Counted from the stretch's first letter, positions 47,369-61,227 are shown. The stretch: DNA of 64,000 nucleotides from Nitrospira sp. CR1.1 (GCA_014055465.1 WIAF01000010.1:1-64000), one strand, 5' to 3'. The notes: generated from the sequence alone by a model not told the origin. Numbers and translations are program-made.

Positions 47369-48235
47369 TTATCTTTCCTTCGTTCTGTCTGGCCAGGGAA
47401 GCGTACCATCTAATTCTCGACAGTACGGGTCACTATCTTCAGCTTCCTCGCTCGCTGTACTTCCTCTCGCAGACAGAGAATCTTCCTCCAACCAGAGCAA
47501 CGACAACATTCGATCCCATTCAGGCAGATACCGTGACTCCTCATAGAGGGTTCCCCCTCGAGTCCAGTCTTCAAACCATTCTGTCGGATCAACCTCGCAA
47601 GGACCGTCCTGAACAAGCTGGGCTCCTTGCGCTGCCAGCGATGAAGGCGGAACAGGATATCCAGTTTGAACCCAGGCACCCATTTCTCTCAGGGAAGGGG
47701 AACGGGTGGCATACCGAACGATTCCGTGTTCAGACAATACAAAGGTGCATGGATTGGCATTCAGAGCCGAAAATCGTGATCCAGTTGCTGTTAGGGAAGC
47801 CTTAAACTGTTTCCCCAACGCGATCACTGCATCAAACCCGATTTCAGCATCATTGACGAGTGGCCTGAAATGATCAGCGGGCAATAGGATTTCAGCGGCA
47901 AAAATGTCGCAGAGCACTTCGCTTTGGGAACGCTTCGTATAACGTTGTGAGTCACTCTTGCCGGCGTGTTCGTTGGGAAGATCGAGATAAATATGTCCAA
48001 GTTCATGACAAATCGTAAAGCGTTGCCGCTCTTCGAGATGCCCCTTGTTCACAATGATGTGCCACTTGCCTTTGATAGGTAGGGAGTGGCCGGACTCGTT
48101 ATGAGGAATATCCATCTCATCGTGAAGGACGGCGCCAATTGCCTCCACATACAGCTCCATTGAAACAGGAAACATAAGATGGGGAAAGCTCCGTACAAAG
48201 CTACGGGCTTTCATAATGACCGAGGACTCATCCAC
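47369..48235 (-). CDS. ImmA/IrrE-family metallopeptidase (CapP-like partner)
   Basis: The 288-aa protein has the zinc-peptidase motif HELGH (in FTICHELGHIYLDL) and the downstream acidic region EVLCDIFAAEILLP, as in ImmA/IrrE proteases. The about 130-residue C-terminal extension is acidic and not recognised. Its GTG start overlaps the end of the XRE gene, so the two are co-expressed. ImmA-type peptidases cleave their XRE repressor after a damage signal. The pair lies divergently upstream of the MBL/E2-E1-JAB/patatin operon, as CapH-CapP does for CBASS. Confidence 0.85.
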   Translation of the reverse strand: MDESSVIMKARSFVRSFPHLMFPVSMELYVEAIGAVLHDEMDIPHNESGHSLPIKGKWHIIVNKGHLEERQRFTICHELGHIYLDLPNEHAGKSDSQRYTKRSQSEVLCDIFAAEILLPADHFRPLVNDAEIGFDAVIALGKQFKASLTATGSRFSALNANPCTFVLSEHGIVRYATRSPSLREMGAWVQTGYPVPPSSLAAQGAQLVQDGPCEVDPTEWFEDWTRGGTLYEESRYLPEWDRMLSLLWLEEDSLSARGSTASEEAEDSDPYCRELDGTLPWPDRTKER

Positions 48236-48617
48236 CTTCCATAGTCTCCCTAATCTTACGGATCTGTTCGAGCACTCTTCCCCAGGCTTCCCTTCCTATT
48301 GGCCGGCCACGCGATCTCATCCGAGCAGCGGATTCAAAGTCCTCGATAGAAACATTCACGTTTTCCAAAGCATAGTTGAGGAGATCTTCGTCGACAGGCT
48401 GCTGTACCAGGAACTTCAAGATTCTTGCTTTGCGTTCTCCCGGTCGCAGAGCCCGTATCAAGCTATCCACGGTGTCATCCGAGGGATCAGCCTTTTCCCC
48501 TGTCTCCAGCCGGTGCACATAGGCATGGTCGAGATCGGCTAGTTGACCCAATTGTCGAAACGACAGGCCCTTTTCGGTCCTGAGGCGCCCAAGCAATCCA
48601 CCAAACCCTATCGGCAT
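48228..48617 (-). CDS. XRE-family transcriptional regulator (CapH-like)
   Basis: The 129-aa protein has an N-terminal helix-turn-helix (LGRLRTEKGLSFRQLGQLADL, then HAYVHRLETGEK) and a C-terminal helical domain that could dimerise or be cut by the peptidase. ATG 48617 has AAGGGG upstream; a TTG at 48632 would add five residues. It overlaps the ImmA-like gene downstream and faces away from the DUF2188/MBL operon, with repeated TTGTC/GACAA sites between. It is inferred to repress both directions. Confidence 0.85.
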   Translation of the reverse strand: MPIGFGGLLGRLRTEKGLSFRQLGQLADLDHAYVHRLETGEKADPSDDTVDSLIRALRPGERKARILKFLVQQPVDEDLLNYALENVNVSIEDFESAARMRSRGRPIGREAWGRVLEQIRKIRETMEGG

Positions 48618-48624
48618 AGGTCCC

Positions 48625-48682
48625 CTTGACAAGAAAATGAGTTGTCGATACAGTGTTGTCCAGCACTATATGTACAGACAAC
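48625..48682. promoter_or_regulatory. Candidate XRE operator cluster
   Basis: GTTGTC occurs at 48641-48646 and 48655-48660, and its inverse GACAAC at 48677-48682, so the last two form an inverted repeat with a 16-base spacer. A further CTTGACAAG palindrome lies at 48625-48633. The cluster is just upstream of the XRE start and within the divergent intergenic region (48618-48876). This is where autorepression and control of the defence-type operon would be expected. Confidence 0.5.
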
Positions 48683-48876
48683 GCACAATCGGACTTTCGT
48701 TGTGATGTTCACCTTGCTGAATGAACGATTAAGAACGTTTGTCGCCCTACTGAACAACAAAATGTACTCCACGCCACAAACCAATGCAAGCCGTAGGGGA
48801 GTGGAATGGGACCATGCGACCTGCATCAGTGAAAGCGAAGACCGTCAACCGATTCATTAACAAGAAAGGAGAGTTC

Positions 48877-49119
48877 ATGGGGAAAAATGATCGATACGTT
48901 GTTAAGCATGAACATGGATGGGCGGTAAAAAAACCGGGCGCTGAACGGGCGAGCAGCATTCACAGCACGCAGCACGAGGCTGAACGATCGGCAAAAAACA
49001 CCGTTGCAAACCTCGGCGGGGGAGAAGTGAGGATTCAAGGACGCGACGGGCAATGGAGAGATTCAGATACTGTGCCACCCGGCAATGATCCCATGCCGCC
49101 GCGCGATCGCAAACACTGA
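48877..49119 (+). CDS. DUF2188-family small protein
   Basis: The 80-aa protein starts at ATG 48877 behind AAAGGAGA. It matches the DUF2188 pattern: RYVVKHEHGWAVKKPGAERA, a TQ/EA helix (STQHEAERSAK) and a GEVRIQGRDGQW strand, ending DPMPPRDRKH. DUF2188 proteins are small and uncharacterised. It lies 63 bp before the MBL gene on the same strand and is probably the first gene of that operon. It is too unlike beta-grasp proteins to be the missing ubiquitin-like partner and has no Gly-Gly tail. Confidence 0.75.
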   Translation: MGKNDRYVVKHEHGWAVKKPGAERASSIHSTQHEAERSAKNTVANLGGGEVRIQGRDGQWRDSDTVPPGNDPMPPRDRKH

Positions 49120-49182
49120 GGCTGCCGTTATGCCCGCGCCATAGCTCCAACATGATCCAGGCGCTATCAAGAAAGGAACACT

Positions 49183-50340
49183 ATGAGCGATCCACATAAG
49201 ATTCTCTGTTATCCGGTGGGGAATGGCGACACCACGCAAATTATTTTGTCCAACGGTCGACGCATACTGCTCGATTACTCTCACCGGCAAAACGGAGAAG
49301 ATAGAGAAACGCCAGAGATTGATCTCAAGGGGCGACTACAAGAAGAGCTGAAAAACGCCAGGCGAGATTATTTCGACGTGGTTGCCTTCACCCATGCTGA
49401 CCGTGACCACATCCAGGGCAGCACAGATTTCTTCGAACTGCAACACGCAGAAAAATACCAGGGTGAAGGCCGCATAAAAATCCGCTGCTTGTGGGTTCCG
49501 GCTGCGATGTTGCTGGAAGAGGCCGAAAGAGACCAACAGAGTGAAGAATTTTGTATCCTTCGTCAGGAAGCTCGACACCGGCTCCTTGAGGGCAAGGACA
49601 TACTCGTGTTCTCCAAGCCGGATGCGCTCAAGGAATGGCTGGAATCAAAACTCAAAGAACGAGGCGAAGCCGCCAATTCACGCGATCATCTCTTTATTGA
49701 CGCCGGAACCATTGTCCCTGGCTTTGCTCTGGGATACGACGGCGTAGAGTTCTTTTGTCATTCTCCATTCATTAAACACTGTGATGGATTTGACATCGTC
49801 AGAAACTCTGCCGCGCTCGTGTTCAATATCCGCTTTCTCATTGATGGGGCAAGTTATGACTATCTCCATGTTGGGGATGCTAAATGGACCGACATGGAAG
49901 AGATCGTGAATACCACGTGCTATCACAAGAATGACGATCGGCTCACCTGGGATCTTTACAACATCCCTCATCACTGCAGTTACCTGGCCTTAAGTGACGA
50001 GAAAGGTGACAACGAAACCGATCCTAAGCCACTCGTAAAACATCTGCTCTTGCAAGGAAAGAGTGATGCCTACATGGTCAGCTCCAGTAAACCCATTCCC
50101 GATCTGAAGGAATCTTATACAGAGATTCAACCTCCACACATTCAAGCCCGTAAGGCATACGAGAGACATCTTAAGGCAGTTGAGGGCCGGAAGTTTCTTG
50201 TGACAATGGAAGAACCAAACGCGAGGAAACCCGAACCACTTCTGTTTGAGATCACAAGCGGTGGAGTTACTTGGCGCCCATCAACCTCCATCGGAGCTTC
50301 ATCCATCTTGACGTCTCGTCCACCGAGAGCCGGATCATGA
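49183..50340 (+). CDS. Metallo-beta-lactamase-fold hydrolase (ComEC-like)
   Basis: The 385-aa soluble protein starts with the MBL strand KILCYPVGNGDTTQIIL and has the metal motif HADRDH at residues 71-76 (HxDxDH form). Further metal-ligand candidates are the GD pair in YDYLHVGDAKW (about 231-232) and IPHHCSY (about 261-267). No membrane helix is present, so it is the stand-alone MBL type related to the ComEC nuclease domain. The substrate could be a nucleic acid, nucleotide or thioester and is unknown. It overlaps the E2-E1-JAB gene by 4 bp (ATGA). Bacterial E1/E2 gene clusters with an MBL neighbour have been described. Confidence 0.88.
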   Translation: MSDPHKILCYPVGNGDTTQIILSNGRRILLDYSHRQNGEDRETPEIDLKGRLQEELKNARRDYFDVVAFTHADRDHIQGSTDFFELQHAEKYQGEGRIKIRCLWVPAAMLLEEAERDQQSEEFCILRQEARHRLLEGKDILVFSKPDALKEWLESKLKERGEAANSRDHLFIDAGTIVPGFALGYDGVEFFCHSPFIKHCDGFDIVRNSAALVFNIRFLIDGASYDYLHVGDAKWTDMEEIVNTTCYHKNDDRLTWDLYNIPHHCSYLALSDEKGDNETDPKPLVKHLLLQGKSDAYMVSSSKPIPDLKESYTEIQPPHIQARKAYERHLKAVEGRKFLVTMEEPNARKPEPLLFEITSGGVTWRPSTSIGASSILTSRPPRAGS

Positions 50341-52607
50341 ACGAAGACTACTACACCCTTCCTCATTTCCGTGAGTTGGACGACGAGAACCAGCTTACCA
50401 TTCCTCGCGCTCAAGCTCTGCTGACTGCGGTAAGGCGGCAACGTGATTATTCTGTCCGACAACTCCTTCAGACGGAGGATGGCGCCTGTGAATGTATCGT
50501 TGTTGATGTCGAAACCGATGGGGTACCGAAGAACAATCGGCACGGAATTAGATATAGAGAACGATTAGCTCTGTGCGTGCCCATCAACGCCAAAGAATTG
50601 GTCATTGTCCTTGCGCTTCGCAAGGACTTTCCCGCACTCATTCATCAGAATCAGATGCCCCAGAACACACCGAGAAGTCTGTGCCTCTATTTCGAGCCAC
50701 CCATTTCAGTGGCTCGAACATGGACTCCGCAGACCTTTCTCAGGCGAATTCCATGGTGGCTTGAAAATAGTGCAACGGATCAGCTTCATCCCGCAGACCA
50801 GCCCGTAGAACGTCTATTTTTTGTTAGCAGGTATGAGCTAGTGCTGCCTTGGAACCTGGAGCAGCTCCGTACGGACAAAGATCTTCGTTTGATCATTGCA
50901 CATGGTCCTAAACGTCAAAACGGTGGGGGCACATACTTTCTCGAAGCCATCTCGGCAAATAGCCAAGTCTCAAATGGCTCGATCCGGCCCATCGAATTCA
51001 CGCTTCCTGCCATTGTACAAGGTCATATCGAAAGTGACCCTACAACGCTAGGAGAACTAGCCGATCTTCTCGAGAGCCGAGAGATTAACTTTCTTCAACT
51101 GCTCAAGGATACATCGTCTAAACTGGTTGGGGAAATGGGTATGCCTGAGTTCGCAGATGACGTGCTTTCAGTCATCATCCTTAGCATTCCAGTGAGGCGA
51201 GCAGAAGAACGGATAGCAAGAACAATCACGCATAGAGCATTTGTTGTTGGCGTTGGCGCGTTGAAACTTGGCGCTCTTACCGGAGCGCTGTTCTCCCTCG
51301 ACGTCCACGATGGCAAAAAAAACACGAAAACGTATTTCAATGCAGCCGGAGTCTTGGGTGACACATCGACAGCTGAGTGGCGTGACCAGGAAATTTTACC
51401 GATGGAGGTACTGTATCGGAATGACGCCGCTGCGTGCAGGAGACAATCCGGCGTAAGTGATGAAGGTCCTTCCGGAGTATTGATCGGTGCAGGGTCGCTT
51501 GGAAGTGCATTGCTTAATCTATGGGGTCGTTCCGGATGGGGACGGTGGACCGCGATTGACAACGACCATATTAAGCCACACAACCTTACCAGACATACAG
51601 CCTTTGCCCAGCATGTTGGTCATCCAAAGGCAATGGTCGTCGCGGAACTCCATGAGGCAGCGATGCATGGTGCCAGTAGTATTACTCCTTTGCATGCTGA
51701 TGCTTGCGATTTTTCTCAGGCTTCTGTGATGAATGCACTGGCTCCCGCCCAATTGGTCATTGATGCATCGACGTCTCTTGACTATCCCCGCGGTGCAAGT
51801 CAGATCGACAACATAGGCCGACATATAACTGTATTTGTTACGCCCAACGGCCATGCGGCTGTGTTGCTTGCTGAAGATGAAAAACGGAGTATTCGACTGA
51901 GAAGTCTAGAGGCACAGTACTATCGCGCACTAATCCAGGAATCCTGGGGAAAGTCCCACCTTGATGGAATGCACTCCTTTTGGAGCGGTGCGAGCTGTCG
52001 AGATATATCCATGGTGATGCCATACTCCAGAATTATGAGCCATGCCGGCATATTAGCAGAACAGATCCCGATGATATCGCTTCGTCCAGAAGCCGTCATT
52101 CGGATTTGGCAGCGTGATCCCAATTGGGGATCGGTCGTGGTGCATGACTGCCCAGTAGCACAAGAACACCACTTCCAGTTTGGCGAAACAGATCTGTACC
52201 TCGATGAGGCACTAACACAACAACTCCGATCGTGGAGAACTGCTCACATCCCAAATGAGACCGGCGGAGTTCTATTAGGCTACTATGACTTCAACATTTC
52301 TGCAGCAATAGTCGTTGCAGCCCTACCGCCGCCCCCGGACAGCACATCGAGTCCTCATTCATTCGAGCGCGGGGTTGAAGGTGCATTGGACGCAGTACAA
52401 GAGGCATCGCGCCGAACAGCGGGAATTGTTGGTTATATTGGAGAGTGGCATAGTCATCCACCAAAACACTCGGCGTCGCCGAGCCAGCACGACCTCATTC
52501 AGCTCGAGTATCTTGCACGCGGCATGTCGCAAAATGGACTTCCTGCTGTTCAACTGATAGTGGGTGAACAAGACATGCATCTACTTCAGGGCACGATGAG
52601 AGAATAA
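50337..52607 (+). CDS. Single-chain E2-E1-JAB ubiquitin-system-like protein
   Basis: The 756-aa protein (ATG 50337, overlapping the MBL stop) joins three enzyme modules. Residues about 1-170 are E2-like, with HQN, PRSLCLYFEPP (catalytic Cys116) and WTPQTFLRRIPWWLE. About 170-370 is a middle region of unknown fold. About 375-620 is a ThiF/E1 domain with nucleotide loop GAGSLGS (384-390), acidic AIDNDHIKPHNLTRH, and a likely adenylation-transfer Cys554 in SGASCRD. About 625-756 is a JAB/JAMM peptidase with Glu641, HSH 705-707, Ser716 and Asp719. All catalytic motifs are intact. It should activate, transfer and trim a modifier or target, but no modifier gene is seen. It is equivalent to CBASS Cap2 plus Cap3 in one chain. 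Confidence 0.9.
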   Translation: MNEDYYTLPHFRELDDENQLTIPRAQALLTAVRRQRDYSVRQLLQTEDGACECIVVDVETDGVPKNNRHGIRYRERLALCVPINAKELVIVLALRKDFPALIHQNQMPQNTPRSLCLYFEPPISVARTWTPQTFLRRIPWWLENSATDQLHPADQPVERLFFVSRYELVLPWNLEQLRTDKDLRLIIAHGPKRQNGGGTYFLEAISANSQVSNGSIRPIEFTLPAIVQGHIESDPTTLGELADLLESREINFLQLLKDTSSKLVGEMGMPEFADDVLSVIILSIPVRRAEERIARTITHRAFVVGVGALKLGALTGALFSLDVHDGKKNTKTYFNAAGVLGDTSTAEWRDQEILPMEVLYRNDAAACRRQSGVSDEGPSGVLIGAGSLGSALLNLWGRSGWGRWTAIDNDHIKPHNLTRHTAFAQHVGHPKAMVVAELHEAAMHGASSITPLHADACDFSQASVMNALAPAQLVIDASTSLDYPRGASQIDNIGRHITVFVTPNGHAAVLLAEDEKRSIRLRSLEAQYYRALIQESWGKSHLDGMHSFWSGASCRDISMVMPYSRIMSHAGILAEQIPMISLRPEAVIRIWQRDPNWGSVVVHDCPVAQEHHFQFGETDLYLDEALTQQLRSWRTAHIPNETGGVLLGYYDFNISAAIVVAALPPPPDSTSSPHSFERGVEGALDAVQEASRRTAGIVGYIGEWHSHPPKHSASPSQHDLIQLEYLARGMSQNGLPAVQLIVGEQDMHLLQGTMRE

Positions 52608-52609
52608 TT

Positions 52610-53701
52610 GTGCCTTCCAGCATTGCACTCGCTCTATCCGGCGGCGGCATCCGAGCAATGGTGTTCCATCTTGGAGTCATACGACTGCTCGCAGAGCGTC
52701 ACTTGCTCGAGAACGTCGAGCGGATCTCTACGGTATCAGGGGGGAGCTTGCTTGTGGGGCTTATGTTCCAAGCTAACCAGTATCAATGGCCATCCTCAGA
52801 CTACTTTATTGAAGTGGTGTACCCAACTCTTCGTGAGTCACTGTGCAAAACAAGTTTTCAGTGGGGGGCAGTCAGGCAACTTCTCAACCCTGTAAACGTG
52901 CCGTTTCTCCTTTCTCGGGCAAACCTATTGGCGTTAGCGATCAAACAAGAATGGCAGATCGACATCAAGCTATCCGAATTGCCGAGTAAACCCGAATGGT
53001 CCATTAATGCGACAACAGCGGAGAATGGAAAACGTTTTCGGTTCAAGCAAAGCGATATTGGAGACTATCAACTCGGCTATGCTCATCCTGGAAACTTTCT
53101 TCTTGCGAATGCGATGGCAGTCTCGGCAGCGTTTCCCGGAGGGTTCGGGCCGCTACAGTTGGACGCCACCCGCTTTGAGTGGCAAAAACGAGAGTGGAAT
53201 GCGCCCAAGGGCACTGAGCAGTCCGTCGATATCGGCTACAAAGTTCTACATCTATACGACGGGGGCATCTATGACAATCTTGGATTGGAACCATTTTTTG
53301 ATGCAGGACGCAGCAAGGCTAAGCACCCAGGGAACGCGATAATCGTCTCTGACGCTGGACGACCCTTGCCATCCGGCTTCGATTTCCTTGCGCTGAATCC
53401 GTTTCGACTTCAGCGTGTCGCCGACATCATGTCAGACCAGTCTCACGCCTTACGTGTTCGGACCTTCTCACGCTATCTCCAGGAAAGTCCCGGACGGGGC
53501 GCGTTCATGTACATTGGGACGCCTATCGAAGCCACATTACCTTGCAAGTCAGCGACATACGCCTCAAACTTTCCTACAACATTGCGCCGAATTGATTGGA
53601 GGGAGTTTGACTTACTCGCGAACCATGGATATCAGGTCGCCAAACAAGTTGAGCAAGCCTATGGCTTATACGACCACTCAGAAACGAGAGAGAACCGATG
53701 A
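52610..53701 (+). CDS. Patatin-like phospholipase, likely effector
   Basis: The 363-aa enzyme starts at GTG two bases after the previous stop. Motifs are the oxyanion loop SGGGIRAM (10-17), nucleophile Ser43 in STVSGGSLL (the VSGGS form of the lipase elbow), AVSAAFPGGFG, and the catalytic Asp217 in LYDGGIYDNLGLEP. No membrane segment is seen. Patatin lipases degrade membrane phospholipids and serve as effectors in CBASS and related immune systems. Here the gene is the last of the operon and is inferred to be the killing or membrane-damaging output controlled by the E2-E1-JAB protein. Confidence 0.9.
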   Translation: MPSSIALALSGGGIRAMVFHLGVIRLLAERHLLENVERISTVSGGSLLVGLMFQANQYQWPSSDYFIEVVYPTLRESLCKTSFQWGAVRQLLNPVNVPFLLSRANLLALAIKQEWQIDIKLSELPSKPEWSINATTAENGKRFRFKQSDIGDYQLGYAHPGNFLLANAMAVSAAFPGGFGPLQLDATRFEWQKREWNAPKGTEQSVDIGYKVLHLYDGGIYDNLGLEPFFDAGRSKAKHPGNAIIVSDAGRPLPSGFDFLALNPFRLQRVADIMSDQSHALRVRTFSRYLQESPGRGAFMYIGTPIEATLPCKSATYASNFPTTLRRIDWREFDLLANHGYQVAKQVEQAYGLYDHSETRENR

Positions 53702-53733
53702 GGCGACCAGGTCGGGCGAAAGGCTGTAATGTA

Positions 53734-54492
53734 TTATCTTGCGCAAGACGAGGTCCAAACAACCAAACTAAGGGCAAGGTGAGCAGTGATTCTCACCGTG
53801 TCTTCGACGACATCCGTGATGGACGCATTGTTTCCACCAAACCAGACCGTGGCAGGTACCTTTCTGGGCCCCATCGGCTCCTCATCACGCTTGAGAATAG
53901 CCGCCGCTCCGGAATCAACCGGAAGGGTACGTCGCGGCCAACATTGCGCCGCTTTGGCACTGGGACTGAGCTCAAACCAGGCTCGACCGTGCTCACTTGC
54001 ACAAATCAGCGCGGCGGGACGATCTGTCAGTTGGACTAAACGCATGGCAGTCGCAGTGATACTGGTTTCAAATTGTTCCGCCAACCCTCGAACCGTTTCT
54101 AAGGTGAGAGGCTTGTCTTTCAAAAGCGGCTGAAACAAATACTGTGGCAGGAGCAATCCAGCTGCATAGCGATTGGCCACGCTTTCTCTATCACGTCCTT
54201 CCCACTGACACATCAGCTGTTCATGATCGCAAACGAGGGCAACTTTGCCGCGATGCTTCATCCAATGGCCCAATTCATGAGCGGCCGAAAATCTCTTTCT
54301 TGACGTGGTCGCCCGTTGGTCCACTGTGATAATTGCGCGATTGCCGTGACCGATAATCCGTCCTTCACACCCAACAAGCCGTTCGTAGATCACTGTGGCG
54401 CCGCAGTATTGCGCAATGGCTTCGATATCGATGTCACGAGGATCGGTAACGTGTAACGCTTTCAGCAGCGCCTCTGGATCGTCAGCAATCAT
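53734..54492 (-). CDS. ImmA/IrrE-family metallopeptidase, second
   Basis: The 252-aa protein has the zinc motif HELGH (SAAHELGHWMKH), the acidic second motif region ESVANRYAAGLLLPQ, and an extended C-terminus with Cys/Trp-rich segments. It is convergent with the patatin gene, 32 bp apart. It differs clearly from the peptidase at 47369-48235. No XRE gene is adjacent; the nearest upstream genes on the same strand are the 147-aa protein and the sigma-like protein, which may form its partner module. Confidence 0.85.
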   Translation of the reverse strand: MIADDPEALLKALHVTDPRDIDIEAIAQYCGATVIYERLVGCEGRIIGHGNRAIITVDQRATTSRKRFSAAHELGHWMKHRGKVALVCDHEQLMCQWEGRDRESVANRYAAGLLLPQYLFQPLLKDKPLTLETVRGLAEQFETSITATAMRLVQLTDRPAALICASEHGRAWFELSPSAKAAQCWPRRTLPVDSGAAAILKRDEEPMGPRKVPATVWFGGNNASITDVVEDTVRITAHLALSLVVWTSSCAR

Positions 54493-54984
54493 AATTGGTC
54501 GTACAGGAACAAAGAGCCTTATGAGTCCACAGCCATCGCATCACGGAGCGGGAATTCGCCTGACGATCCAATTTGGAGGACATGTGAGATCGCATGGATA
54601 AAGCAGGCAGGTCTCATAGTACTGTACACCCGTCGCGACGGCAAGTTAGCCACGTTTTTATGCCTATGTCTCGATTCAGAAGGCGAGGAGCCAGACCAAC
54701 ATTAAGGATCACAAACCTCTAGAACTTCCGATCCCCTGTAACTATCGGAGCGTCGAAGTAAGGTTGGATTGACTGCGGAGGGTTAAAATGCAGTCTGCAC
54801 CTGATTGCGGTCAAAGGAGGAAGTACCGTGAGAGGCTTTGAGCGACTTCACACATGATTGACGGTGATACTTCGGCGATGGTGCGTCATCAGGGCAGGAA
54901 GGGAAAAGACCCTCGCTGCACTCCGATTCTGGACAGCTCGTGACTGTGGTGTCGCACCTCAACACGTTCGCACGGGTTATCTCC
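54493..54984 (+). other. Intergenic stretch of 492 bases
   Basis: No gene with recognisable features is present. An AAAGGAGGAAG at about 54815 looks like a ribosome-binding site but is followed by only a short frame. A promoter for the second ImmA-like gene is expected in the first 100 bases but I cannot define it. Confidence 0.45.
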
Positions 54985-55428
54985 TTAGGGTTTCTTGAAT
55001 TTGAGAAGGCCCAAGACATAAAGCTGCCGCAAGAGGCTGTCGATGTCTGCCGGCGTCATATCGCTCAGTTTGCGATACTGACCGGTTAGCACTGCGGGTT
55101 TCAGATAGTGATGGTGCGCCAGACAGGCCTTGAGGAGCTGCAACTTATCTTTCATCGAAGTCGGCAATGACAGGCGGTCACGTTTTAGTGAGGTCACCTC
55201 TTTTTGGTACGTCTGGCGGGATTCAGCCAGTGCGTGGTGAGCAGACTCTCCGAGCGCCTCTGCGAACACTCTTGTCGCGCGCTGACCAAACTGTTGTGGG
55301 TCCAAGCCACTTCCCCGAATTTCTTCGTCCAATTCTTCTTCTGAGAGGTTCATAATTGCTTCGGCCTCTAAATCGAGCAGGCGCTCATATTGAGACCAAA
55401 CGTCGTTAGCTTTAGTTTTTGATTTCAT
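54985..55428 (-). CDS. Hypothetical helical protein downstream of sigma-like gene
   Basis: The 147-aa protein is charged and helical (MNLSEEELDEEIRGSG; ESRQTYQKEVTSLKRDR) with a C-terminal LLRQLYVLGLLKFKK. Its ATG overlaps the sigma-like stop (55425-55428), so translation is coupled. No family is recognised. It could be an anti-sigma or adaptor protein, which is speculation from the overlap only. Confidence 0.65.
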   Translation of the reverse strand: MKSKTKANDVWSQYERLLDLEAEAIMNLSEEELDEEIRGSGLDPQQFGQRATRVFAEALGESAHHALAESRQTYQKEVTSLKRDRLSLPTSMKDKLQLLKACLAHHHYLKPAVLTGQYRKLSDMTPADIDSLLRQLYVLGLLKFKKP

Positions 55429-56048
55429 AACAGTCCTTCCAAGTTGCGTTTCCTAATCTTACTCGTGGCGCGTACTATCTGCATATTGTATACGGCGTAT
55501 TGCGGTTTTGTGATTTTTAGCCGCTGGCAGATTTCCGGACCGCTTAAGCCCTCAATTTGAAGCTGAAATACTTTCTCTCCCATGGAGTGTTGGCCTAGAA
55601 GAGCTGCCATGTGACACTTAATCTTGTCCAGAGCGATCTCGCGTCGCTTCAATTCCAACTCTTCTTCCGGATTTGGAAGGGCAGAGCGAAAGTCGTCTGC
55701 GGTCTTCGCCCTCACCTCGTTGTCGATATCTTCTTCATCTTTGGAATTGAGCGAGGAGACAAGGATTGGCTCCTGATACCGTTGACTATTGTGATGCTGC
55801 GCATGGTTACTCACTTCTGATCTGATTACCCAGCGCAGATGATCGCGCATCGAGTATTTTTTGTTCCAGGGCCGCGATCCTGCGAGTGTCGCCTCGATGG
55901 CTTCGTGCACGAAGTCTTCATCCTCCCGCCCTCCTGCCAATACGCCGATGCGAGCCACAAGCTGCCTTGCTAGCCACATTAAGCTCTTGCGTTCCTCTAG
56001 GCTTAGTGCCTCGATGGCGCGTCGGATTTCATCCTGAGTCGCTACCAT
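55425..56048 (-). CDS. Sigma-70/ECF-like helix-turn-helix protein
   Basis: The 207-aa protein resembles an RNA-polymerase sigma factor in layout. An N-terminal region has DEDFVHEAIEATLAGSRPWN and SMRDHLRWVIRSEVSNHAQHH (region 2-like). The C-terminal region has GEKVFQLQIEGLSGPEICQR followed by LKITKPQYAVYN (region 4-like HTH). It is transcribed away from tnsA across a 153-bp gap, so it may control the transposition operon or the downstream genes. Confidence 0.7.
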   Translation of the reverse strand: MVATQDEIRRAIEALSLEERKSLMWLARQLVARIGVLAGGREDEDFVHEAIEATLAGSRPWNKKYSMRDHLRWVIRSEVSNHAQHHNSQRYQEPILVSSLNSKDEEDIDNEVRAKTADDFRSALPNPEEELELKRREIALDKIKCHMAALLGQHSMGEKVFQLQIEGLSGPEICQRLKITKPQYAVYNMQIVRATSKIRKRNLEGLL

Positions 56049-56201
56049 AATTGACTTCGATCCAGAACTCGAAACTGCTGGCTCAAATATTTGTCTACAA
56101 TCGTTCCGTTAAAAAACCGACGAAAGATCAGTATAGCCGAGTATGCCTTAAGGAGAGTTACCTCCGAGGTGGTTAGGATAACACGACAAAGAAGGATGGA
56201 A

Positions 56202-56909
56202 ATGAGAAAAGCGATTTGGGAACAGAAAACGGTCGAACGCGACGGCGTAAAGCCGGTGTGGAACCAACCGCGTGGGAACTATGGAAGTAACTTTTGGCAG
56301 ATGTATAGCCGGAAATTGGATCGAGATGTTCACTTCTACAGCAGTCTTGAGCGCGACCATGGCGTGATCGTCGAAGCCGATCCCACGGTCGCATGGTTCT
56401 GCGAACAACCGCTACGCATCAACATTAAGTTGGACGGCCGGGATCGTGAATCAGTGATGGACATGCTGATCCAGTTCACGGACGGCCGGACGGAATATCG
56501 TGAAGTCAAATATGCGAGTGATGTGCAGCGAGTTGACGATGGCTCTCGAGTGGCTCGGCAATTGGCCGCTCAACGTGAATGGGCGTTTGTCACCGCGAAT
56601 GACTACAAGATCGTCACGGATGAGGAAATCAGACGGAATGCCGTGTTCCTTCGGAACTGGAAACAGATCTTGGCGTATCTCGCCACCTACGCGTCCTATG
56701 ATCTCGCGGAGATTGAAACTCAACTCCTCGCCGCGTTCGACATCGAGCCGTCCTGGTCCCTAAGAGATCTAGAACGTCATATCGCTCGTCCAGACCGTCA
56801 GACGGTAAAGGCCGCGATCTTTCGCCTCATCCATAGTGGTCTGTGCACGGCTCCGCTCGACGTGTACCCGTTGACCAACTCCTTAACCATACAGCGAGGG
56901 ACAAAATGA
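56202..56909 (+). CDS. tnsA: TnsA-like transposon endonuclease
   Basis: From ATG 56202 (GAAGG six bases upstream) the protein has 235 aa. The nuclease core shows Glu50 in FYSSLERDHG, Asp87 in SVMDMLIQF and Glu101-Val-Lys103 in EYREVKYASDV, the E-D-ExK arrangement of TnsA. A helical C-terminal domain follows. TnsA nicks the 5' ends of the element so that TnsAB moves it by cut-and-paste. The frame is open upstream to a TTG at 56091; ATG 56196 is also possible. It overlaps tnsB as ATGA. Confidence 0.88.
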   Translation: MRKAIWEQKTVERDGVKPVWNQPRGNYGSNFWQMYSRKLDRDVHFYSSLERDHGVIVEADPTVAWFCEQPLRINIKLDGRDRESVMDMLIQFTDGRTEYREVKYASDVQRVDDGSRVARQLAAQREWAFVTANDYKIVTDEEIRRNAVFLRNWKQILAYLATYASYDLAEIETQLLAAFDIEPSWSLRDLERHIARPDRQTVKAAIFRLIHSGLCTAPLDVYPLTNSLTIQRGTK

Positions 56910-58846
56910 CGGTATCGAAGTCTCGAATGGATCGCGACTCACTCCCGCCCGATGTGACAGACCTCTCTCACTGGCCGACCGTCGATCTCGCCCTTTTAGA
57001 CGAGAACGATGCAGACCGAGTCGCGAGGCGGATTCAGGCCGTCCGTGCCTATATCGAAGGACAACCCGTTGGAATCCTCTCGAAACAAGCGGCCGTGCCA
57101 CGGCAAGAAGTGTATCGGCTCGTCAAACGTTGCATGAAGTTCCACCCTGACGGCCGAATCTGGGGGTTTCGAGCCCTGCTGCCAGCATGTCGTATCACTC
57201 CCTACGTTCGAACAGCCACGATAGATGGCTCCAGACCTTCTCAGCGGGGAGGGGCAGCTGGGGCGCTCACGATGCTGTTCGACCGATACCCGACGATCCA
57301 AAAAGCGGTGGACTCCTTGTTCCTGAAGAAAGTGAAAGAGCATGTCGTCCAGGAGTCCCGCATGCCGGTCAAGGCGATTCATAAGCACTTCATTGAGAAG
57401 TGTAAGGAAGCTGGCCTGACCGCAAGACACTATCCACTCAACATGAACCATCGGGGGCGGCGTGCGCTGTCGAGCTATCTGAAGCGGCTCTTCAAATCGA
57501 ACCTGAAACAAGCAGTAAAGGCGCGCCATGGGGACGACGCCGCGCGTGCGCTGGCGTCGAGGGAAGCGGGTCCTGACAGCATCGTGACCAGGCCGTTCGA
57601 ACGGGTTGAGTTTGACGGCCATCGGATCGATGCGGTTTGTACGATTGACCTCCCGAATCCCTATGGAGGCATTCAACAGCTTGTCCTTGATCGACTGTGG
57701 CTACTCGCCATCATTGACGTGAAGACTCGCGCTATTTTGGGGTACACCTTGGTGCTAAATCCCGAATACAACGCAGAGGACGTCCTCCGTTGCATCAAGC
57801 ATGCGCTGACGCCCTGGAGACCGATGACCTTAACCATCACCGGATTGAAGTATACGAAGGGGAGTGGGCTCCCTTCAGGAGTCCATGCCGAATGCGCCTG
57901 GGCGTTGTGGGACGAATTATGGTTCGACAACGCCAAAGCCAATCTGGCCGATGCGGTCAGGTCGAATCTCAGTCGAGTAGTCGGATGTGCCATTAATGCT
58001 GGCCCTGTGAAAACCCCTCAGCGTCGACCGTTCATTGAACGGCTCTTTCAAACGTTGGAAGAGAACGGATTTCATCGGCTGCCGTCCACGACGGGCAACG
58101 GTCCAGATGATCCTCGTCGTGACGACCCAGAAGCCGCGGCGCTACGCTGGAATATCTCGTACCAACACCTTGTTGAACTGACCGACGTACTCATTGCTCG
58201 TTACAATGCCGAGCCGCACACGGGATTGGGCAATCGGTCACCGCTCGAGATGCTTGAGTACTTTATTGTGAATGAAGGATGCGAGTTCCGGGCAGTGCCT
58301 GAACAGAAGCGACAAGATCTCGCGCTGCTCCACATCCGCGTTGTGCGGTGTATTCGCGGAGATGTGACGCAGGGGAAGTGCCCCTACGTTGAATTTGAAG
58401 GCGTCCGCTATTACAACGATGTCCTCCGTCACAGTCCAGACCTCGTCGGCGAACACCTCTCGCTCCTCGTCGATCCGGACGATCTCCGCTGTGTCACCGC
58501 GTATCTCGAGGACGGCCGAGAATTTGGTGTGCTCACGGCCCATGGGCTTTGGGGCCGGACGCCACATACGCTCACCGTTCGAAAGGCCATTCATAAACTC
58601 CGAGCTCGAAAGCTGATCTTCTATACGGATAATGAGGACCCGATCCTCGTCTATATGGACTTCCTCAATCAGCAAGCGGCGACGAGTAAGCTGGCGAGGG
58701 GACAGTCGGCAAAACTCCTGGCAGGGCTTCAGGCAGTTCCCCCGACTCAGCCCACGTCGTCGATCGCCGATGTCACAGAGTCGAATCCCCCAGCGTCGTC
58801 CCGCACGGTCTATACCCCCGCCATGAGGAAGACCCGCCTCGATTAA
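56906..58846 (+). CDS. tnsB: TnsB-like DDE transposase
   Basis: The 646-aa transposase belongs to the Mu/Tn7 DDE family. Catalytic residues are Asp237 (VEFDGHRIDA), Asp341 (LWFDNAKAN) and Glu378 (RPFIERLFQTLEENGFH). The N-terminal part has helix-turn-helix regions (GILSKQAAVPRQEVYRLVK) that bind the repeats at the element ends, and the C-terminal tail is the expected TnsC contact. The ATG overlaps the tnsA stop. All motifs are intact. Confidence 0.92.
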   Translation: MTVSKSRMDRDSLPPDVTDLSHWPTVDLALLDENDADRVARRIQAVRAYIEGQPVGILSKQAAVPRQEVYRLVKRCMKFHPDGRIWGFRALLPACRITPYVRTATIDGSRPSQRGGAAGALTMLFDRYPTIQKAVDSLFLKKVKEHVVQESRMPVKAIHKHFIEKCKEAGLTARHYPLNMNHRGRRALSSYLKRLFKSNLKQAVKARHGDDAARALASREAGPDSIVTRPFERVEFDGHRIDAVCTIDLPNPYGGIQQLVLDRLWLLAIIDVKTRAILGYTLVLNPEYNAEDVLRCIKHALTPWRPMTLTITGLKYTKGSGLPSGVHAECAWALWDELWFDNAKANLADAVRSNLSRVVGCAINAGPVKTPQRRPFIERLFQTLEENGFHRLPSTTGNGPDDPRRDDPEAAALRWNISYQHLVELTDVLIARYNAEPHTGLGNRSPLEMLEYFIVNEGCEFRAVPEQKRQDLALLHIRVVRCIRGDVTQGKCPYVEFEGVRYYNDVLRHSPDLVGEHLSLLVDPDDLRCVTAYLEDGREFGVLTAHGLWGRTPHTLTVRKAIHKLRARKLIFYTDNEDPILVYMDFLNQQAATSKLARGQSAKLLAGLQAVPPTQPTSSIADVTESNPPASSRTVYTPAMRKTRLD

Positions 58847-58867
58847 CCTCAGTGAAAGGAGCAATAA

Positions 58868-59836
58868 ATGTCACATGTCCTACACCTAAGACCTTCTGTG
58901 CCTTCTGGAACCCACCCGATCGAAACAGGACGGTATACACTCTTCACGCCACCATTGGGCCGCTTCTGCGACGACCTCAAAAACTGGGTCAATAATCGAG
59001 CGGCAGGTGCCATCGTGACGGCGCCGCCCAGATTTGGAAAATCCAAAGGGATTCGATTTGCCGTCAACGAGTTGCGCGAGGAACTTGGCGCGACGCTCCC
59101 GATCCTAACGTTTTGCTGTCAGGACCATCAGTACCCAACCGAATCACGGTTTTTTGAAAGTCTACTCAGCGATTTCGGTCATAGTCTCAGCCTCCGTGGA
59201 ACCGCCAGCGCAAAGCGGGCACGGGTAATACAGTTTTTGGTACAGGAAGCCTGCGCCAATGACCATCGACGATTGGTGTTGATTGGAGACGAGGCGCAGA
59301 AACTCCGAGAACCCCACTATAAATGGTTGGTCGATATCTATAATGGGCTGGATCGCCACGATATCGCGACAACCGTTGTGCTTGTCGGGCAACCGGAATT
59401 AGTCCATCAACGAGACGCCTTTGAAACGGCCAAGAAAATGCAGATTGTCGGCCGGTTCATGGTACACCTTCACCGATTTGCCGGCCTGCGGAACCAGAAG
59501 GATTTTGCCTACTGCCTGAAGGGCTACGACGATGAGTCCGAGTACCCTGAGGCCAGCGGCTATTCGTTCACACGATATTTCTTTCCCTCAGGATTTGAGG
59601 CGGGATGGCGCTTGGCCGGGGAAGCAAAGGTTCTCTGGGAGGCATTCCAGCATGTGAGGGCTGAGGCCAAGCTACCTGGTAAAGCTGAAATCCCGATGCA
59701 GTACTTTTCACGAACTGTGGAATTCGCGCTCAAGGACTACAGGTCGATGGACGGTGGCCCACCGACCATTTCATTGAATCAGTGGAAAGAAGCCATCGAA
59801 CGTTCTGGATACCGTGATGCGGGGCGATACTTATGA
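58868..59836 (+). CDS. tnsC: TnsC/TniB-like AAA+ ATPase
   Basis: The 322-aa regulator has Walker A APPRFGKSK (residues 52-60, with Ala where Gly is usual at the first position), Walker B LVLIGDEAQ (136-144) and sensor residues near VVLVGQPELV. It assembles on DNA and passes the target choice of TniQ to TnsAB. It lies 21 bp after tnsB behind GTGAAAGGAGC and overlaps tniQ by 4 bp. Confidence 0.9.
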   Translation: MSHVLHLRPSVPSGTHPIETGRYTLFTPPLGRFCDDLKNWVNNRAAGAIVTAPPRFGKSKGIRFAVNELREELGATLPILTFCCQDHQYPTESRFFESLLSDFGHSLSLRGTASAKRARVIQFLVQEACANDHRRLVLIGDEAQKLREPHYKWLVDIYNGLDRHDIATTVVLVGQPELVHQRDAFETAKKMQIVGRFMVHLHRFAGLRNQKDFAYCLKGYDDESEYPEASGYSFTRYFFPSGFEAGWRLAGEAKVLWEAFQHVRAEAKLPGKAEIPMQYFSRTVEFALKDYRSMDGGPPTISLNQWKEAIERSGYRDAGRYL

Positions 59837-61227
59837 GCCAATTGAACGAAGGACATGATCAGATGGTGCCACACACACGATATACGTGGGATGCCAGCCA
59901 ATGCGTTCCGTTTGAGTCCACGTGGTCAATCTTTCAGAAGTTCATGGGGTTTAATGCCTGCGGGGCGCGAGATATTCAGCGCGAATTCGGGCTTGCGACG
60001 AAAAGACACCATCCTCAAAACTGGTCGGATCGGGATCGGAACTTACACGACTGGGGCGCGCTCAATCCGGAGCTCGTGCAGCGCGCACTGAACTTGACCG
60101 ACCTCCACATGAGGACGGCACGCACTGTTGACTATATTCGCCCGGATGAAGCGAAAGTGTTGGCCAGTCGATCCCTTCGCATCTGCCCGAAATGTATCAG
60201 GGGAGGCTTTCATACGCCTCTCCACCAGTTGGTATTCATTCCCCAATGCCCTGTGCACAAGCAACCGCTCCTGAGCATCTGTGTTGACTGCGGTAAGCCG
60301 ACGCCTCTGTACTCTTTGTTGAGGCAGTCATTTTGTAACCCTTATGGGTGTGCTGAATGCGGAGCGGTCTGGTGGCAACGGAGTCGTGTCGGACAGATGA
60401 CAACAGGGGAGCAAGAAGAGCGGTTTCGCGTCATGTCTGAGATCGGGGAGTGGCTCACGAAAAGAAGGGAGGACCGAACGATTGAGGCGCAAATCTCTAA
60501 ATTGGCTCGGTTTATACCAGACGAGCATGAAATTCAGGCCTACGTTCGACGGCTGCCGGAGAGATGGGCGGACGTTTTGGGAGTGAACGTGCCACACCAG
60601 ATTGCTGAATTGCGAGAGACAGATTTACATGTCATGGTGGAGTATACGGCGTGGAGCGTCGATGGATCGAGTTCGTCCGGATTGTTAGACAACAAGAAAT
60701 ATTTCGAGGTGTATCGCGCGATTCGCCGTGCACTCACAAGGCGAGTTCATAAAGCCCACCGCGAGTGCTTTGAAAAAATGGGGCGTGGGATTTGGTTTCC
60801 GGTCACAACCAGAGAAGTGCCCGTTCGGCAATTCTGCCAAGAGGCTTATGCGTTGCTTCTCTGGAGAATGTTTTGGGAAAACATCGATGTTCCACAAAAG
60901 TTCTTTTCGCGGCAGCTCGTACTCATTCATCGTGAGATAGACTTTGTATCGGACCGAATCCCGTCGGACCTCTCTCCAGAGGCTGCCATGCGAATATTCG
61001 GGCTGGAATGTCTGAGAACGTATCGGCGATGTCAGGAGCTTGGGAGCCTGATGCGGCAAAAAGAGCATATCGGTTTCCCGTTGTATCGCCTGAATAAGGA
61101 TCGCGCTGGCGAATGGGTTGTGAAGGTCCCTAAAATCGGAAACAGACAGAAACTCCATTGGTGGTGGCCGAGGCGATGGGAAAAGGCTCTTTCGATTCAA
61201 GACCACGAAGCAAAACGTGCTGCTTAG
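59833..61227 (+). CDS. tniQ: TniQ/TnsD-type target-selection protein
   Basis: The 464-aa protein has the TniQ zinc-finger array CPKC (118-121), CPVH (139-142), CVDC (150-153) and Cys168, CAEC (173-176). A C-terminal half with helix-turn-helix-like segments follows. TniQ proteins choose the insertion site, either a fixed DNA sequence (TnsD-like) or through a CRISPR complex. The long C-terminus and the absence of any Cas gene favour a DNA-binding, site-specific role here. It is the last gene of the transposition operon. Confidence 0.88.
   Translation: MSQLNEGHDQMVPHTRYTWDASQCVPFESTWSIFQKFMGFNACGARDIQREFGLATKRHHPQNWSDRDRNLHDWGALNPELVQRALNLTDLHMRTARTVDYIRPDEAKVLASRSLRICPKCIRGGFHTPLHQLVFIPQCPVHKQPLLSICVDCGKPTPLYSLLRQSFCNPYGCAECGAVWWQRSRVGQMTTGEQEERFRVMSEIGEWLTKRREDRTIEAQISKLARFIPDEHEIQAYVRRLPERWADVLGVNVPHQIAELRETDLHVMVEYTAWSVDGSSSSGLLDNKKYFEVYRAIRRALTRRVHKAHRECFEKMGRGIWFPVTTREVPVRQFCQEAYALLLWRMFWENIDVPQKFFSRQLVLIHREIDFVSDRIPSDLSPEAAMRIFGLECLRTYRRCQELGSLMRQKEHIGFPLYRLNKDRAGEWVVKVPKIGNRQKLHWWWPRRWEKALSIQDHEAKRAA

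Follow-up and report, generated by a model that had tools for sequence, protein, structure and literature searches.

Which protein is conjugated by an E1-E2 enzyme that stands in an operon with no recognizable ubiquitin-like protein? The question is posed by a locus in a 64,000-nt stretch of Nitrospira sp. CR1.1 (GCA_014055465.1 WIAF01000010.1:1-64000; hereafter the window, with positions counted from its first letter). The locus encodes cap2_3, a protein with E2, E1 and JAB modules, next to a metallo-β-lactamase (MBL)-fold enzyme, and comprises the following features.

47369..48235, minus strand: CapP-like ImmA/IrrE metallopeptidase with HELGH motif (PADLOC capP, 6.2e-51)
48228..48632, minus strand: CapH-like HTH repressor, divergent from the operon (PADLOC capH, 2.8e-12)
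48784..49119, plus strand: DUF2188 protein, accessory; likely start near 48877, where homologues begin (Pfam DUF2188, 2.1e-17; PADLOC PDC-S16)
49183..50340, plus strand: MBL-fold enzyme, 385 aa, ComEC-like, proposed E1/E2 substrate (NF058524.1; ComEC match 9ic4)
50287..50337, plus strand: predicted disordered C-terminal tail of the MBL, aa 369-385 (pLDDT < 50; invariant R382/G384)
50326-50334, plus strand: Arg-Ala-Gly of the MBL tail, followed by Ser at 50335-50337 (junction read from the DNA)
50337..52607, plus strand: cap2_3, E2-E1-JAB triple-module protein, 756 aa (NCBIfam NF058523.1, Pfam, conserved catalytic residues)
50421..50864, plus strand: E2 domain, aa 29-176, Cys116 at 50682-50684 (Prok-E2_A, 9e-33)
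51450..52157, plus strand: E1 adenylation domain, aa 372-607, Cys554 at 51996-51998 (Cap2 structural matches)
52206..52568, plus strand: JAB/JAMM isopeptidase domain, aa 624-744 (Prok-JAB, 7e-12; invariant catalytic residues; Cap3 entry 9ild)
52610..53701, plus strand: patatin-like phospholipase, candidate effector (Pfam Patatin, 3.5e-16; VSGGS and DGGIYDN motifs)
53734..54492, minus strand: second CapP-like ImmA/IrrE metallopeptidase with HELGH motif (PADLOC capP, 4.4e-57)

A triple-module protein of the 6A-MBL type

The cap2_3 frame is open over its whole length, and its start ATG is the one used by the homologues. The Pfam domains Prok-E2_A (residues 29-176), ThiF (381-478, 2.7e-12) and Prok-JAB (624-744) place E2, E1 and JAB in that order in one polypeptide. 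An alignment of 75 homologues with 31-77% identity to cap2_3 shows no variation at Cys116, the E1 glycines G384, G386 and G389, Cys554, Glu641, His705, His707, Ser716 or Asp719, and at least 90% conservation of Ser706. This conservation of catalytic residues is far beyond chance, and the original prediction, which had read all three activities and their catalytic residues from this single chain, holds; the invariance of Cys116 and Cys554 also answers the check on the E2 and E1 cysteines that it had proposed. We note that in the predicted structure Cys554 lies on a low-confidence loop (547-556, pLDDT < 50).

The architecture had been presented as if it were new, which it is not: Iyer et al. (2006, PMC1779556) described it as operon type 6a, in which a triple-module E2-E1-JAB protein nearly always stands beside an MBL, and NCBIfam holds an equivalog model for it. 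Against that model (NF058523.1, 6A-MBL_cap2_3) cap2_3 scores 669 bits with a cut-off of 320, and the adjacent MBL scores 388 bits against the model of the specialized enzyme family (NF058524.1, 6A-MBL_enzyme; cut-off 220). Judged by sequence families, the locus is a 6A-MBL gene pair, a described bacterial type that is anti-phage according to its NCBIfam name. It shares the two core genes and the domain order of row 6a, and adds DUF2188, patatin and CapH/CapP-like genes to that core. In the literature searched, which lay outside subscription journals and preprints, we found one passing mention and no mechanism for 6A-MBL or triple-module proteins, nor any report of a 6A-MBL conjugate. A passage on what is very likely the same operon class, found downstream of CapK/CapS in 7 cases, itself describes neither a mechanism nor the tail discussed below.

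The best structural match of cap2_3 is E. cloacae Cap2-CdnD02 (7to3; Foldseek E 5.9e-24, Z 26.2, 500 residues, model residues 18-607), from a prediction whose alignments left out plasmid rows. The E1 domain matches the Cap2 chains 7tqd/7tsx/7tsq over 372/374-607 (Z 25-26), residues 234-477 match Cap2 by sequence profile, and the JAB domain matches the Cap3 entry 9ild; BubCD, from the BubA-BubB-BubCD structures, is a weaker match. In type II CBASS, the C-terminal Gly of the cyclase is first linked to Cap2 as a thioester, after which Cap2 joins the cyclase to lysines. Conservation of the Gly/Ala tip is confined to operons with full-length Cap2 and Cap3, a change of the tip from Gly to Ser or Val abolishes conjugation, and Cap3 cleaves after the tip, also in a linear fusion (PMC10097602; PMC11153139). 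The present locus shares with type II CBASS the E2-E1 fold with both cysteines, a Cap3-like JAB isopeptidase (fused to the Cap2 part here, separate in CBASS), a patatin effector (CapV there) and CapH/CapP or CapW-like regulators. It also shares a partner protein with a conserved Gly/Ala C-terminus; here, however, this partner is an MBL in place of a CD-NTase, and its tip is RAG, often with extra residues. Sequence-family scans found no CD-NTase among the nine neighboring proteins.

The G+C content of window positions 48001-56000 is 51-53%, against 53-61% in the rest of the window, a drop consistent with an island acquired horizontally. A Tn7-like transposition module adjoins the operon (56091-61227) and contains a TnsA-like endonuclease, a presumed transposase of 667 aa without Pfam match, a TniB/AAA protein and a TniQ-like protein. 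An MBL-E1-JAB-patatin operon carried by a Streptomyces plasmid (L121) likewise stands beside a TnsA-like gene and a Mu-type transposase.

The C-terminal tail of the MBL

Homologues were gathered from genomes, plasmids and viral contigs; in scans of the genome and viral contigs a single-sequence query found nothing, and an alignment query found homologues. No match to the operon was found in phage records. Across 56 non-redundant MBLs (25-84% identity) only 10 alignment columns are invariant, Arg382 and Gly384 among them, and Ala383 is conserved in 55 of the 56. The RAG motif is present in 86 of 87 MBLs. Its column entropies are 0 to 0.13 bits, as compared with a protein mean of 1.6, and few parts of the protein vary as much as the 20 residues preceding the tip (mostly 1.8-3.6 bits). 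In the predicted structure (pLDDT 90.5), residues 369-385 are disordered, with pLDDT below 50. Such a loose tail with a fixed tip is, as far as alignment and model can tell, the look of an E1 substrate. The earlier statement that the neighborhood has no Gly-Gly tail is therefore literally correct, but it missed the C-terminal Arg-Ala-Gly of the MBL, which is conserved as strongly as the metal site of the enzyme. The NCBIfam model NF058524 spans aa 10-361 of this MBL and leaves the tail out; specialists may already know the tail evidence.

In 57 of the 87 MBLs the protein ends exactly at the tip Gly, and the remaining third or so, including the window's RAGS, carry 1-9 residues beyond it. All eighteen MBLs that overlap cap2_3 by 4 nt have residues past the Gly, the window's own among them, and the extension changes state 13 times on the cap2_3 tree. 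Five MBLs (L024, L037, L041, L046, L087) have a doubled tip, e.g., PPRAGWRAG, PPRAGLESRPLRAG and PPRAGLESRPIRAG. In another locus (L022, ~2590-2640), an apparent acetate-kinase fragment runs into SLPPRAG and a stop before cap2_3, with no MBL found; this junction looks like an assembly error or recombination.

The position of the tip, directly before the next gene, raises the concern that RAG is conserved only through its overlap with the ribosome-binding site or start codon of cap2_3. Indeed, there are few loci in which the two genes neither overlap nor abut, and the start is preceded, at a distance of 5-10 nt, by GG-rich codons. However, across the MBLs every one of the six Arg, four Ala and four Gly codons is used for the motif, which makes such an artefact unlikely. 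RAG persists although the cap2_3 start may precede the MBL stop by as much as 25 nt or follow it by up to 11 nt, and it persists with 1-9 codons after it; the residues are conserved exactly where the DNA varies. We consider this explanation extremely improbable.

More distant MBLs, from plasmids and viral contigs, have the ends RVG, HG, YG or FG, in some cases followed by a few more residues, or else YA. The tip types RAG, HG, YG, FG and YA change six times on a tree of 93 E1-E2 proteins, whose long branches make the deep joins uncertain, and sort by E1-E2 clade, so that each tip type stands beside its own E1-E2. In the YA clade (L097, 4992-8503; L120, 3974-7380), the E2-E1 and JAB are encoded by separate genes, as in CBASS. 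The MBLs of this split variant end in ...YA; that of L120 passes the 6A-MBL model, and the E2-E1 protein of the variant scores 64.5 bits against 6A-MBL_cap2_3, under the cut-off of 320. No MBL of the 6A-MBL family was found without an E1 partner, and the family therefore offers no negative control of the kind provided by CBASS operons that lack Cap2. Avs1a, taken for comparison of the tail, yielded no more than three matches in the phylum, all of them weak and partial.

The fold nearest to that of the MBL is the ComEC MBL domain (9ic4, Z 24.1), followed by the phosphorylcholine esterase Pce (Z 22), with RNase Z and J lower among the structural matches. Since the motifs HADRDH and PHHC are conserved, the MBL is probably an active enzyme. 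Its domain is related to those of the defense MBLs Avs1a, RTasMBL and LmuA, but it scores far below their models (for Avs1a, 28 bits versus a curated cut-off of 420).

Candidate modifiers and substrates

If the MBL were merely a partner enzyme, the modifier could be a separate β-grasp protein encoded elsewhere in the genome. Bub and Bil, which are likewise bacterial E1/E2/isopeptidase modules, carry dedicated ubiquitin-like modifiers, in contrast to the present operon, in which sequence-family searches found no β-grasp modifier. The earlier observation that the neighborhood lacks a β-grasp protein stands in this sense: by sequence family, none of the nine proteins between 47369 and 56048 matched a ubiquitin-like one. 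On the other hand, the two-gene core of MBL and cap2_3 is seen on plasmids and chromosomes of many phyla, with no third gene common to all 6A-MBL loci. Structurally, cap2_3 lies nearest to Cap2, an enzyme that has an operon neighbor as its substrate, and a separate modifier would leave the invariant tip of the MBL unexplained. We therefore regard this reading as unnecessary and improbable. The original prediction had also offered residues 170-370 of cap2_3 as a built-in ubiquitin-like module, a region that the Pfam matches indeed leave uncovered. Against this proposal stand the alignment of residues 18-607 with Cap2 (7to3) in one piece and the Cap2 sequence-profile match within that segment; moreover, the region has no free C-terminus. 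It retains next to no plausibility.

A third possibility is that E1 and E2 conjugate another protein of the operon. The patatin, whose C-terminus had been named as a substrate to test first alongside that of the MBL, follows cap2_3 directly in 45 of 95 loci. Its homologues share the nucleophile motif SGGS (46 of 46) and the DGG motif (45 of 46), but their C-termini have nothing in common, and the gene is missing from half of the loci. About one locus in ten has a DUF2188 gene close to the operon. Homologues of its product beside 6A-MBL operons (L012, L027, L034, L086, L090) mostly end in ...DPxPPKG, a tip that could recommend it as a substrate; those of this genome and two close relatives, however, end in PPRDRKH or PPHDRKH (PPRDRKH in the window), and many operons have neither gene. 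We thus give neither the patatin nor the DUF2188 protein more than a very small chance of being the protein that is conjugated. A PDB sequence search gave no meaningful relative of either protein, and PADLOC lists the DUF2188 family as candidate PDC-S16. Two other apparent features of the loci were set aside: an MBL-cap2_3 fusion (L017, 1144-aa ORF), in which the upstream part is an open frame without MBL similarity, and clusters of antisense ORFs beneath the patatin, which look like shadow frames.

In sum, direct conjugation of a neighbor in the manner of Cap2, which had been among the options first proposed, finds no support for the patatin and is favored for the MBL. The invariant RAG, the predicted disorder of the tail, the sorting of tips with E1-E2 clades and the likeness to Cap2-CdnD02 together make it likely that the MBL is the conjugated protein. 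Against this stands the single MBL without RAG (L052), which ends in RNG...KLG (PSRNGFSTPAPKLG), and the tail could also serve for docking or trimming only, with no transfer to targets.

A CBASS-like working model

With the MBL as the conjugated protein, the 6A-MBL anti-phage operon would work like type II CBASS, with an MBL-fold enzyme replacing the CD-NTase. The E1 of cap2_3 would adenylate the C-terminal Gly of the MBL tail (...PPRAG), Cys554 would take over the tail as a thioester, and the E2 Cys116 would receive the MBL and join its C-terminus to amino groups of targets, from which the fused JAB could cut it off again. Where residues follow the Gly, as the single Ser does here, the JAB would trim the tail first; the cleavage of a linear fusion by Cap3 makes such trimming plausible. 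The MBL would thus be both the attached protein and an enzyme with a ComEC-like active site, and attachment would probably prime or place it, as with the CD-NTase.

The likely killing effector in this model is the downstream patatin or, in other loci, a membrane protein. Small membrane proteins or a second MBL (PADLOC PDC-M48B) are encoded nearby in other loci. Alternatively, the MBL itself may be a toxic nuclease effector that conjugation holds inactive or releases, with the patatin as an independent add-on; this is compatible with the conjugation step. The ComEC MBL domain as nearest fold, with RNase Z and J lower in the list, and the many loci without patatin are consistent with such a role, while the exchange of patatin, membrane protein or second MBL in one downstream slot, like exchangeable effectors, argues against it. 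We see this as a genuine possibility that is nonetheless the less probable side of the question.

Expression would be controlled by CapH/CapP, which may hold the operon off until DNA damage. The genes for a CapH+CapP pair, a divergent HTH protein and an ImmA/IrrE peptidase beside an immune operon, are present here, and a second capP-like gene follows the operon. In other loci, WYL proteins (CapW-like) lie upstream in about 22 and ImmA/IrrE peptidases in about 12. CapW and CapH+CapP are DNA-damage-responsive regulators of immune operons (PMC13373217). Several copies are broken: the operon lies in fragments on a Pseudomonas syringae plasmid (L004), the MBL of G247 (L009, L112, L113) is in two pieces ~1.1 kb apart, and several cap2_3 matches on enterobacterial plasmids (H5, H6, H84, H89) are split around IS3 elements, as if the system were costly.

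A broader reading, which we offer tentatively and consider rather unlikely as a whole, is that an active MBL serves as the ubiquitin-like modifier across the family, with clade-specific tips read by the matching E1-E2 and trimmed by the fused JAB. The MBL would then sit in the signaling seat of the CD-NTase, and its conjugated form would make or destroy a small signal by which exchangeable effectors, patatins or membrane proteins, are turned on.

Row 6a has stood as a ubiquitin-like pathway without a modifier since 2006, and the MBL is now a strong candidate for that part. The question of the conjugated protein is reduced to one residue, Gly384, and is testable in E. coli, since conjugative plasmids of Klebsiella and E. 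coli commonly carry members of the 6A-MBL family. The tail analysis also leads us to expect that an E1-E2 module can be directed to another, quite unlike enzyme through a match to its short C-terminal tip.
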